Source: Blastopirellula sp. J2-11 (GTDB lineage: Bacteria > Planctomycetota > Planctomycetia > Pirellulales > Pirellulaceae). From it: 64,000 nt of DNA. Shown here in pieces: positions 21,605-24,610 of the stretch. The notes beneath the pieces are model-generated. The model was not told the origin of the DNA, searched no databases, and worked only from the letters and a program-made list of their open reading frames with translations. The stretch covers positions 806,001 to 870,000 of the forward strand of contig NZ_CP097384.1 in assembly GCF_024584705.1 (NCBI RefSeq), in the 5' to 3' direction. How positions within the stretch are numbered: the first letter of the stretch is position 1; each line of letters starts with the position of its first letter. The position numbers were made by a program, and so were the translations under genes.

Positions 21605-22264
21605 CTAGACCAGGCCCGGGATCATCTTCCAGCGGACGCGTGTTGCGTATTCGCGATAGCTTTCGTCCTGCGTTAGCAGTCGTTCTTCGGCCATGATTCG
21701 CAGCATCCATAGCAACACGGCGCCGCAGTAGACGGCGGCGTTCCAGTAGCTGAATTGATTGATCAGGTAGCCGCCGAAAGCGACGACATAGCTTAGGTAG
21801 AGCGGATGCCGAACCCAGCGATACATGCCGCCGGTTTTGATCCCGCGATTGGCCGCGACCACGCCGATGCTGCGATTGAGCGACGCCATGGCGAAGATCT
21901 GCAAGCCGAGGCCGACGCATTGCACGATCTGCCCAAACAGCGTGTCATGGCTAGCGCCGGCCGGCATGAACAGGATCACCGCATAGGTTCCCATGATCGC
22001 GACGGTCCAGTCGTACAGCGACATCGACACTTTCTCTGGCGGTTTGCGGATCAAGTAGAAGAAGACGTCGCTCGAGACTTTCACCAACAGCAGCAAGGTG
22101 CTCAAGCGGTACCAGGTGAAGAACGCTTCTCCCTGGATCCAGGCGAAGCGAAAGAAAAATGCGGCCAACACGACGTTGGTGCACATCTCCCAAACGAGAC
22201 GCTTGAATCGGGGCAGATCGGCTTCCAGCGGTGAAAATGAGGTTGTTGTAGCGTTGGTGTTCAC
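21605..22264 (-). CDS. Integral membrane methyltransferase, isoprenylcysteine/phospholipid methyltransferase-like
   Basis: A 219-residue multi-helix membrane protein. The C-terminal half carries the ICMT/PEMT signature: GGMYRWVRHPLYLSYV, then AEERLL and the final YREYATRVRWKMIPGLV, which bind SAM at the membrane surface. The N-terminal half has three hydrophobic segments. The GTG start (22264-22262) overlaps the TGA of the upstream membrane-protein gene by four bases (GTGA), so the two are translationally coupled. It probably methylates a lipid or lipid-linked substrate; the true substrate is unknown. Confidence 0.8.
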   Translation of the reverse strand: MNTNATTTSFSPLEADLPRFKRLVWEMCTNVVLAAFFFRFAWIQGEAFFTWYRLSTLLLLVKVSSDVFFYLIRKPPEKVSMSLYDWTVAIMGTYAVILFMPAGASHDTLFGQIVQCVGLGLQIFAMASLNRSIGVVAANRGIKTGGMYRWVRHPLYLSYVVAFGGYLINQFSYWNAAVYCGAVLLWMLRIMAEERLLTQDESYREYATRVRWKMIPGLV

Positions 22265-23328
22265 TGGGCAATCTCCATCGTTTCCTGAACCTTCTTCTTG
22301 CGAGCTTTCCAGATCAGGCCGTCGACAACGTAATGGTGAAAATTAATGGTTTGGTAAATTACCATCGCGACTACCGGGATCGCAGCGATGATGCTTAAGT
22401 TGGTCAGCATGTAGATCACGCCGTACACCAAGCTCGTCAGTCCCAAGCAGACGACGAAATAACAGACGACGTTAAACGGATGCGTCTGGCTAATCGCCGA
22501 GAGCAGCATGTTTTTGGGGTCGGTTCCTTGCTTGAAGCGATTCGCGTTGAACATCCAGACAATCAGGATGTACTGGGCGTTGTGCCAGACGTTCAGCACC
22601 AGCCAGCCGTGATCGATGTCTCGCACCAGCACATAGCCCACGGTAAAAATCGTCAGGTGCGTAAACATATAGAGCACCAAGCCCAGCGAGGTCTTCCCTT
22701 CACGCCAGGCGATCGCTTGGCGAACCAGCCAGACCGCGGTCACGCCCAGCGCGACGACGCCCGACGCGACGACCAGCCAGTAAGGGGTGGGCAGGTACAT
22801 CACTTCAGAGCCGAGAAATCGCGGTGAAGCTTGATACGAGCGATAAAGGATTCCCCACAGCGGAACCAGATAGAGAGACCACGTAGTCAGTCGCTCGTCG
22901 ATCGGCAACTGACCGCCGGCTTTCCGGCTATAAAATCGGGAGATTCCATAGCTCTGGCGCGTGTAGTGAAACCATTGCCAATAGAGATAGATGGTCGCCA
23001 GCGCCCAGATGCCAAAGGTCAGTCCGATCACGGCGGTCGCCGCCAAGACGACCCAAGGCAAAACGGTGAGTAGTCGACGATGCTCGCGAGCACTATCGGC
23101 GTCGAAAGCGAGACGCGTGAACGTCGCGACAACATGGTGATAGCCGAGCAGCCACAGGTCAAGAATGAGAATGATCGGAAACCATTCAGGACGAACGGTC
23201 ACGATCGCGCCGGTGGCCAAAGCTAAGATCGCGACGCCGAAAATCAGCGTCATATCAAACTTGGCGTTACGAAGCCAACCGTATCGTACGTCCGCTACGG
23301 CGCTGTCGGTTAGGGCGGCAGTGCTCAT
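22261..23328 (-). CDS. Polytopic membrane protein of unknown function
   Basis: A 355-residue protein with about nine or ten predicted membrane helices. Histidines recur at helix ends: LGYHHVVATFTR, WFHYTRQSYGISRFYSR, LNVWHNAQYI and NFHHYVVDGLIWK. Such His-rich sites in a membrane bundle recall membrane di-iron or heme proteins, but I cannot assign a family. It is translationally coupled to the ICMT-like methyltransferase downstream, and the unit may modify a membrane lipid. The ATG at 23328 is followed by a soluble N-terminus of about 25 residues. Confidence 0.75.
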   Translation of the reverse strand: MSTAALTDSAVADVRYGWLRNAKFDMTLIFGVAILALATGAIVTVRPEWFPIILILDLWLLGYHHVVATFTRLAFDADSAREHRRLLTVLPWVVLAATAVIGLTFGIWALATIYLYWQWFHYTRQSYGISRFYSRKAGGQLPIDERLTTWSLYLVPLWGILYRSYQASPRFLGSEVMYLPTPYWLVVASGVVALGVTAVWLVRQAIAWREGKTSLGLVLYMFTHLTIFTVGYVLVRDIDHGWLVLNVWHNAQYILIVWMFNANRFKQGTDPKNMLLSAISQTHPFNVVCYFVVCLGLTSLVYGVIYMLTNLSIIAAIPVVAMVIYQTINFHHYVVDGLIWKARKKKVQETMEIAQ

Positions 23329-23488: not shown

Positions 23489-23572
23489 GTAGGGTCCGCT
23501 GTGCGGACCAGGGAAGCGCGAAAAACTTGCAAGAAATCTGGCGGGACGGATGGTCCGCACGGCGGACCCCAC
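23489..23572. repeat. REPIN-like palindromic element, copy 1
   Basis: An 84-bp element beginning GTAGGGTCCGCTGTGCGGAC and ending in its near-perfect reverse complement (TGGTCCGCACGGCGGACC). Each end is itself a hairpin, GGTCCGC-TGT-GCGGACC. It is nearly identical to copy 2 at 24161-24245 and sits 5 bp beyond the stop codon of the RAYT gene. Two inverted REP units joined by a short spacer define a REPIN. Confidence 0.8.
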
Positions 23573-23577
23573 GCCGA

Positions 23578-24138
23578 TCATTCGCCGGTGGTTGCAATAT
23601 TGGCGAACGTTGGCGGAGCATGCAGTCCGCATCCCCAGTTCAAAGGATAAACGCCGGCTTCGACCCAGCGATGGAAGGTGGAAAACTTCCAATATTTCGG
23701 GCACTTCACGTAGCCATGCTTCACTGGATTCCAATGAAGGTAGTCGAAATGGGCGTCATAGTCCGCTTCGCTCTCGATCGTATGTTCCCAAAATCGCCGC
23801 TGCCAAACTCCGCGTCGTCTGTTTCGATGGCGTGAATCGGAGACGGGCCGTTCCTTGCCTCCGGCAGCTAGGTACCGAATGGTAAATTCTTTCTTAATCC
23901 ATGCCCATCGCGTGGAGTAATCGGCGTCACCGGAGGGGAGTGACCAGATTGCATGCAAGTGGTCAGGCAGCAAGACAGCCGCATTGGTCTCGAAGGGGCG
24001 GAGTCGTTTGGCTTCGCGAAAGATCTCGCCTAGTAATTTGGCGGCCCATTCCTTTTGGAAAATTGGGGCATTGCGTTCCGTCTTCAAGGTAAAGAAGTAG
24101 AGACCTCCAGGCACATAGGCGCGACGGTAGTTCGGCAT
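23578..24138 (-). CDS. REP-associated tyrosine transposase (RAYT), IS200/Y1 family
   Basis: A 186-residue Y1-type HUH nuclease. The N-terminus MPNYRRAYVPGGLYFFTLKT is typical of RAYTs. The HUH motif is in LLPDHLHAIW, and the likely catalytic Tyr is in FDYLHWNPVKHGYV, where the family has Y..xNP.K. The basic segment RHRNRRRGVWQRRFWEH precedes it. RAYTs cut and join single-stranded REP hairpins and are usually single-copy, domesticated genes. The gene is bracketed by two REPIN-like palindromes (23489-23572 and 24161-24245), the expected substrates. It interrupts an otherwise conserved-looking stretch between the membrane protein unit and glnB. Confidence 0.9.
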   Translation of the reverse strand: MPNYRRAYVPGGLYFFTLKTERNAPIFQKEWAAKLLGEIFREAKRLRPFETNAAVLLPDHLHAIWSLPSGDADYSTRWAWIKKEFTIRYLAAGGKERPVSDSRHRNRRRGVWQRRFWEHTIESEADYDAHFDYLHWNPVKHGYVKCPKYWKFSTFHRWVEAGVYPLNWGCGLHAPPTFANIATTGE

Positions 24139-24160
24139 GGCGGCCTTACTCGCATCAGGC

Positions 24161-24245
24161 GTAGGGTCCGCTGTGCGGACCAGGGAAGCGCTCTAAAACT
24201 TGCAAGCAATTTGGCGGGGCGGATGGTCCGCACAGCGGACCCTAC
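24161..24245. repeat. REPIN-like palindromic element, copy 2
   Basis: An 85-bp element whose outer 22 bp at each end form a perfect inverted repeat (GTAGGGTCCGCT... with ...AGCGGACCCTAC). The ends contain internal GGTCCGC/GCGGACC hairpins, and the spacer contains CTTGCAAGCAATTTGGCGGG. It lies 22 bp upstream of the RAYT start and 26 bp downstream of the glnB stop codon. It is in the same orientation as copy 1. Confidence 0.82.
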
Positions 24246-24271: not shown

Positions 24272-24610
24272 TCAAACGGCGTCTTCCCCCATTTCGCCGG
24301 TACGAATGCGGATCGCCTGTTTGACGTCGTAGATAAACAGCTTTCCGTCACCGATCTGGCCGGTTTGCGCCGACTTCAAAATCGTGTCGATGACCAGCTG
24401 CAGATTTCCGTCGCTGCAGATAATCTCGATTTTGTGCTTGGGCACAAAGTCGACCGAATACTCGGCGCCGCGGTAGTTCTCGGTGTGCCCTTTTTGGCGG
24501 CCGTAACCTTGCACTTCACTGACGGTCATGCCGTGAACGCCCATGTCATTGAGCGCCGTTTTGACATCTTCCATCTTGTGGTGCCGAATAATCGCTTCCA
24601 CTTTTTTCAT
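24272..24610 (-). CDS. glnB: Nitrogen regulatory protein PII
   Basis: A 112-residue PII signalling protein that senses ATP/ADP and 2-oxoglutarate and controls ammonium uptake and assimilation. The T-loop is intact: GYGRQKGHTENYRGAEY with Tyr51, the uridylylation site, followed by SVDFVPK. The B-loop region TGQIGDGKLFIYDV is also conserved. It lies 78 nt downstream of amtB on the same strand, the classic amtB-glnK pairing, so a GlnK-like role (direct AmtB blocking) is likely. Whether to call it glnB or glnK is a matter of context. Confidence 0.95.
   Translation of the reverse strand: MKKVEAIIRHHKMEDVKTALNDMGVHGMTVSEVQGYGRQKGHTENYRGAEYSVDFVPKHKIEIICSDGNLQLVIDTILKSAQTGQIGDGKLFIYDVKQAIRIRTGEMGEDAV

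Follow-up and report, generated by a model that had tools for sequence, protein, structure and literature searches.

A probable REPtron in Blastopirellula sp. J2-11: a RAYT gene flanked by two REPINs of a cognate GTAG-tagged REP type

In this study, we have analysed a window of 64,000 nucleotides, the whole stretch of DNA considered here, from the chromosome of Blastopirellula sp. J2-11, in which a RAYT (TnpA-REP) gene lies between two REPINs. G000 denotes this genome and G001, G002 and G003 denote three congeneric genomes; the remaining G and L numbers are genomes and loci that were compared. The features of the locus, in window positions, are as follows.

22261..23328, minus strand: open reading frame of 355 aa, the neighbour on the other side of the locus from glnB; no NCBIfam match
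23489..23572, no strand: REPIN copy 1, 84 bp, 5 bp past the RAYT stop codon (repeat search, alignment, folding)
23489..23509, plus strand: REP 1a, GTAG tag, 7-bp stem and TGT loop (REP pattern search, folding)
23552..23572, minus strand: REP 1b, tag GTGG, loop CGT, 2 mismatches (REP pattern search)
23489..24160, no strand: 672-bp repeat period, comprising one REPIN and the RAYT gene; the excess of this locus over the single-REPIN locus of G002
23578..24138, minus strand: RAYT/TnpA-REP gene, 186 aa (NF047646, PDB 4er8, residue map)
24161..24245, no strand: REPIN copy 2, 85 bp, 22 bp before the RAYT start, with perfect 22-bp inverted ends
24161..24181, plus strand: REP 2a, consensus (REP pattern search)
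24225..24245, minus strand: REP 2b, consensus (REP pattern search)
24272..24610, minus strand: glnB (P-II regulator); P-II models are the best matches, at scores below their own cut-offs

The gene product belongs to the REP-associated family of HUH-Y1 proteins. It matches NF047646 (REP_Tyr_transpos) with 180 bits against a cut-off of 80 (E = 3.2e-53), and E. coli TnpArep (PDB 4er8; 1.8e-40) is its sole sequence relative among solved structures at 0.001; a Pfam search at the same threshold returned no family. The residue map places the HUH motif at His60 and His62 (DHLH, with His60 taken from the sequence), the catalytic tyrosine at Tyr133 in YLHWNP and a WQ motif at residues 112-113, and both the open reading frame and the catalytic residues are intact. 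The available part of PMC6006769 lists E. coli W94, Q95, E100, H101 and R104 with GTAG recognition. In the residue alignment, the first four of these are kept in the window RAYT, as are Tyr115 and N119; R104 is replaced by Glu, and 72 of 94 relatives have Arg at this position. The GC content of the gene is 0.54, against 0.56 for the window, and its GC3 is 0.59, against 0.64 to 0.78 in seven neighbouring open reading frames; both values are slightly low, which is not decisive as a sign of recent foreign origin.

The REP is a 21-nt sequence, GTAG-GGTCCGC-TGT-GCGGACC. Both REPINs, which are 91% identical to each other, consist of two inverted GGTCCGC-NNN-GCGGACC hairpins with their tags pointing outward, so that the RAYT gene is flanked by inverted REPs; the tag is GTAG in three of the four and GTGG in the REP of copy 1 that faces the RAYT gene. 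When folded as single-stranded DNA, copy 1 had a z value of -5.2 and copy 2 (plus strand) one of -7.9, and none of 200 shuffles equalled either. The first-pass annotation had described this architecture correctly: two near-identical elements of 84 and 85 bp bracket a RAYT gene with an HLH motif and a tyrosine in YLHWNP, the hairpin pairs are borne out by reading, repeat search and folding, the outer 22 bp of copy 2 were recovered by the repeat search as a perfect inverted repeat, the spacings of 5 bp past the stop codon and 22 bp before the ATG are exact, and the island does separate glnB from its neighbour.

The same REP is dispersed over the chromosome. At up to 3 mismatches, the 21-nt sequence had 44 matches, against 0 for the reversed control, and the REP core with 1 mismatch had 41, against 5 for its control; the 85-bp element gave 36 matches, some of which are one place counted on both strands. 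Chance palindromes were considered as an explanation and were ruled out because of the 44 genomic matches against a control of 0 and the folding relative to shuffles. Within 20 regions of the genome, with up to 4 mismatches allowed per REP, 14 REP pairs less than 200 bp apart were listed, all of them head to head; these pairs, together with the folding, identify the REPIN, two inverted REPs with a spacer, as a unit. According to gene calls based on open reading frames, 22 of 32 REP sites are intergenic (11 convergent, 10 codirectional and 1 divergent), 6 overlap a gene end and 4 lie within a gene. The REPs are thus mainly extragenic and downstream of genes, a placement near gene ends of the kind described in the accessible text of PMC3733652. 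The expectation that tens of intergenic copies would be found therefore held for their number and for most, not all, of their positions. One 20-kb stretch (G000:C1:3670720-3691432; L229, L230) holds ten REPs with 3 mismatches or fewer; each of its seven sites has a REP at the G002 counterpart, and the stretch also aligns to G003.

Eight RAYT-like matches were found in the genome, two of which are pieces of one degenerate gene. Two further strong RAYT-type genes lie at G000:C1:1173160-1173606 (L231) and 5768768-5769216 (L244), the latter degenerate, and each is flanked on either side by one REP of its own type, the two in inverted orientation: GTAGGGTGCGTC-GA-GACGCACC at the former and GTAGGTCAGGCC-TT-GGCCTGAC at the latter. 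There is accordingly one RAYT per REP type in this genome; near four other RAYT-like loci, no tagged hairpin was found.

Outside the genus, the pairing extends to other genera and families. The nearest RAYT in a sample of 396 genomes of the order is 69% identical and comes from another family (G144). The closest RAYT records are in keeping with a planctomycete host. An identical 21-nt REP stands beside the RAYTs of G144 (69%), L137 (66%), G098 (62%) and G135 (62%, one REP only), all from other genera, and REPINs flank the RAYT on both sides elsewhere too, for example in G144. A lack of the palindromes beside RAYT orthologues would have counted against the island; the closest orthologues outside the genus instead have the identical REP. 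On the RAYT tree, the window gene groups with these four and with a pseudogene that has no REP (L404), with support of 99/93. Other stems are found beside the RAYTs of G121 (62 to 63% identity) and G001 (60%), and below 60%, most RAYTs with a tagged hairpin have other REP types, L145 and L146 (55%) excepted. RAYT identity therefore predicts the REP only roughly, since G121 differs at 62 to 63% and L145 and L146 agree at 55%. The latter two are Planctomycetota RAYTs that lie off the window group on the tree and have the same 21-nt REP. In an AU test, a single clade for the seven TCCGC-type RAYTs had a p value of 0.208 with L404 included and 0.017 with L404 shut out; a single origin of the window REP type that takes in L145 and L146 is thus not rejected (p-AU 0.208).

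Across the wider set, REP type tracks the RAYT tree, with 35 changes compared to 56.0 after shuffling (0 of 200 shuffles were as low); the first tree had 32 changes compared to 49.1. The first tree comprised 94 of 120 loci, two duplicates and rows shorter than 150 aa or below 40% identity having been left out, and the second tree and the AU tests used 68 of those 94 (at least 47% identity, six duplicates or repeats removed) plus 29 of 30 added loci, the one removed being the window itself. The scan for GTAG hairpins found none at 42 of 94 RAYTs on the first tree and 39 of 97 on the second. Dispersed REPs likewise match the local RAYT in four of five further genomes, namely G060 (29), G061 (26), G062 (22, control 1) and G064, where 34 of 35 matches are a compensated TACGC form that flanks its RAYT. 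The fifth, G063, has a CAGGC-type RAYT and, in a count of the window REP, 0 copies. The trees, the REPs beside relatives and the genome counts together tie REP sequence to RAYT lineage. At G064:C45:43030-44007 (Methylovulum psychrotolerans, the genome of L141), two REPINs lie 877 bp apart as a direct repeat, as in the window.

REPs and RAYT do not always occur together. At up to 2 mismatches, the window REP is present in 7 of 60 genomes, own included (in G054 the five copies are another stem type; G017 has 13), and the congeneric genomes G001, G002 and G003 hold 79, 52 and 46 copies, respectively, without a window-type RAYT, contrary to the prediction that REPs would be absent where the RAYT is lacking. 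These three genomes have 18, 10 and 8 RAYT-like matches (36 in total). No intact hairpin of the window REP type was found within about 800 bp of the 25 that were scanned, with isolated 7-nt half motifs only, at 9 of them, and none of the other 11, whose positions were checked by eye against those of the REPs, lies within 10 kb of one. Since three congeners hold REPs without it, the window-type RAYT is not needed for keeping REPs, and in these species the REP population has outlived, or never needed, this gene.

At the glnB site, the neighbouring genes are unchanged in G002, and between them lies a single 84-bp REPIN, which aligns to both own copies and is closer to copy 2 than to copy 1, and the RAYT is absent; G001 and G003 have neither REPIN nor RAYT at this site. 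The own locus equals that of G002 plus the 672-bp period. For these four genomes, a gain of one REPIN with the RAYT and a loss through recombination of two REPINs explain the site equally well.

Elsewhere, at 18 of the 32 own sites the G002 counterpart also carries a REP, with up to 4 mismatches allowed; at 5 the aligned G002 gap has none, and for 9 the G002 sequence compared gave no match on both sides. The G002 stretches were chosen partly around G002 REPs, which biases the comparison towards shared sites, and two pairs of own sites among the 18 each map to a single G002 REP or REPIN. Because these 18 sites are common to both genomes, the REP population is mostly inherited, with some turnover. 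Two of the 5 are good cases of presence against absence, which gain in G000 or loss in G002 would explain alike: at 1714219, G000 has a 64-bp REPIN just past a gene end and G002 has none (six G002 stretches compared), and at 1942631, 84 bp in G000 stand against 8 bp in G002 between shared flanks. At 886273 and 6043135, one flank of the G002 gap gives a poor alignment. At 4700997, the last of the 5, G002 carries a copy of an ATPase gene between REPINs. By eye, a tandem array of an 18-bp unit (CCAGTCCAGTCCAAGGTT) adjoins a REP at L237:5330-5600, at a site occupied in G002 by an ATPase copy.

The ATPase gene (RepA-like, AAA_25; for example, L231:6573-8354, G000:C1:1166572-1168350) is a multicopy family in all four genomes, and two own copies are 97.6% identical over 2042 bp. 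After short pieces were removed by eye (53 of 69 matches kept), 11, 16, 13 and 13 full or near-full copies remained in G000, G001, G002 and G003, and for 2, 12, 6 and 4 of these (24 of 53) a REP lies no more than 500 bp from the 3' end. An ATPase copy is present at a distance of 800 bp or less from 36 of 79 REPs in G001 (0.55 expected by length), 12 of 52 in G002 (0.30), 8 of 46 in G003 (0.23) and 5 of 40 in G000 (0.22), and in two own copies the reading frame continues into a REPIN, which encodes the last part of the protein. REP numbers can therefore rise without the RAYT. At C1:682-684 kb, G002 has a REPIN-ATPase-REPIN arrangement where G000 has one REP; the G000 counterpart retains stretches similar to the two termini of the ATPase unit, which points to loss in G000 rather than insertion in G002. 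Both termini vary from one ATPase copy to the next, and no clean boundary, fixed ends or target duplication was found.

Based on the identity of the REP beside the grouped RAYTs and the match of dispersed REPs to the local RAYT in four of five further genomes, we consider that the locus is a REPtron, that is, a TnpA-REP-type RAYT with a REPIN of its own GTAG-tagged REP type on either side, which the RAYT probably moves; we put the probability of this reading at about 0.85. The REPIN-RAYT island of the first-pass annotation is upheld by copy number, family match, structural relative and the matching REPs elsewhere. By analogy with the characterised TnpA-REPs (PMC8266576), the RAYT would most likely bind the folded single-stranded REP through its GTAG tag and hairpin, cleave near the single-stranded GTAGGGTCCGCTGTGCGGACC REP by means of the catalytic tyrosine and join strands by strand transfer. 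In this way, REPINs would occasionally gain new positions by copying or movement, frequently just past gene ends. The RAYT would be gained and lost at REPIN sites while the REPs are largely inherited, and in species without the RAYT the REPs may partly be carried along by another multicopy gene.

A competitor to the REPtron reading, which we regard as rather unlikely, is that the RAYT is an incidental visitor that arrived in or beside one REPIN and does little, the REPs being old and kept by inheritance, by use to the host as hairpins at gene ends and by hitchhiking with the proliferating ATPase gene. The REPs of the congeners that have no window-type RAYT, their excess near ATPase copies beyond the expectation from length (most marked in G001), the 18 sites shared with G002 and the lack of a closer RAYT within the genus would all agree with such a visitor; however, it would leave the exact REP identity beside RAYTs of other genera and families, with matching dispersed copies, the intact reading frame and catalytic residues, and two REPINs found in G000 and absent from G002 without a ready place. 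An ordinary insertion sequence of the IS200/IS605 group is barely credible. Its transposases are of the HUH-Y1 superfamily, as is the RAYT, but the RAYT type is present in one copy and scores with the RAYT family, it has the WQ motif, and its flanking repeats are dispersed without the gene; a multicopy gene with fixed ends was not what we found. In addition, the tyrosine is followed by NP (YLHWNP), compared to the Y[IV]ENQ of the IS200 transposases listed in PMC6006769. Family score, copy number and motifs led us to reject this candidate.

Two further proposals concern how the locus arose. The solo REPIN of G002 could be the remnant of a REPIN-RAYT-REPIN ancestor, shared with G000, from which recombination between the REPINs deleted the RAYT. 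The common flanks, the alignment of the G002 REPIN to both own copies and the REPINs on both sides of the RAYT in other genomes speak for this history, yet later gain of the RAYT with one REPIN in G000 fits too, and G001 and G003 have neither element; either path allows the G002 REPIN to be nearer copy 2, and we hold deletion to be only a little short of an even chance. It concerns the past of the site and not its function, and is compatible with the REPtron reading. A bolder and improbable idea is that REPINs are the ends of gene-carrying units, such that the 672-bp REPIN plus RAYT inserted at the GTAG of a resident glnB REPIN and the same REPINs bracket or tail the ATPase copies, as in the G002 arrangement at C1:682-684 kb; if so, RAYTs would be able to move genes and not REPs alone. 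The remnants in G000 that point to loss at that site, and the lack of fixed ends in the ATPase copies, speak against this idea.

The complete REPtron comes from a lineage in which few have been described, and the glnB site offers a natural comparison of three states: nothing, a REPIN and REPIN-RAYT-REPIN. Sister species that hold REPs without the enzyme make it testable whether REPIN populations need a RAYT, and RAYTs across the order with different REP stems can be used to find the residues that read the stem. The REPtron type itself is already known; it is the comparative detail, sister species with REPs and without the gene, that is useful.

Rhodopirellula baltica is a planctomycete, and in Pseudomonas, REPINs are dispersed REP doublets linked to RAYTs. 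The window genome shares such doublets with Pseudomonas, differing in REP sequence and having about 40 REPs. A planctomycete version had been thought undescribed, which does not stand, because the accessible sections of PMC3733652 (2013) already report GTAG REPs in Planctomycetes, among 24 REP families; we also found RAYTs above the NCBIfam cut-off in 31 of 60 genomes, own included. The same sections attribute to R. baltica several families of REPs, along with a great number of tyrosine transposase genes that are flanked by repeats, and describe dimers mostly 20 to 100 bp apart, with head-to-head as the commonest arrangement in most families. By this description, the GTAG REPs of R. baltica and other PVC bacteria share with the window the tag, short stems and loops, dimers and a REP-flanked RAYT. 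RAYT-REP coevolution was proposed in PMC2817692, as far as its available text goes.

The E. coli TnpA-REP REPtron (group 2, subclass 2.2) shares with the window locus the protein family, the HUH-Tyr core, most of the GTAG-recognition residues and the flanking inverted REPs; the window RAYT has Glu at the position of E. coli R104, and its subclass is judged from motifs. According to the excerpts of PMC8266576, the E. coli, Stenotrophomonas and Marinomonas enzymes cleave single-stranded REPs at a dinucleotide near the hairpin, and the E. coli REP requires a stem bulge, whereas the window REP has a perfect 7-bp stem with a 3-nt loop. The TACGC-type REPtrons of Methylovulum and other Methylococcaceae (L141 to L144) likewise have a GTAG tag, a 7-bp stem and a 3-nt loop, with RAYTs 52 to 58% identical to that of the window; they differ in one stem pair, which is changed on both sides, and their RAYTs form a separate, well-supported group.
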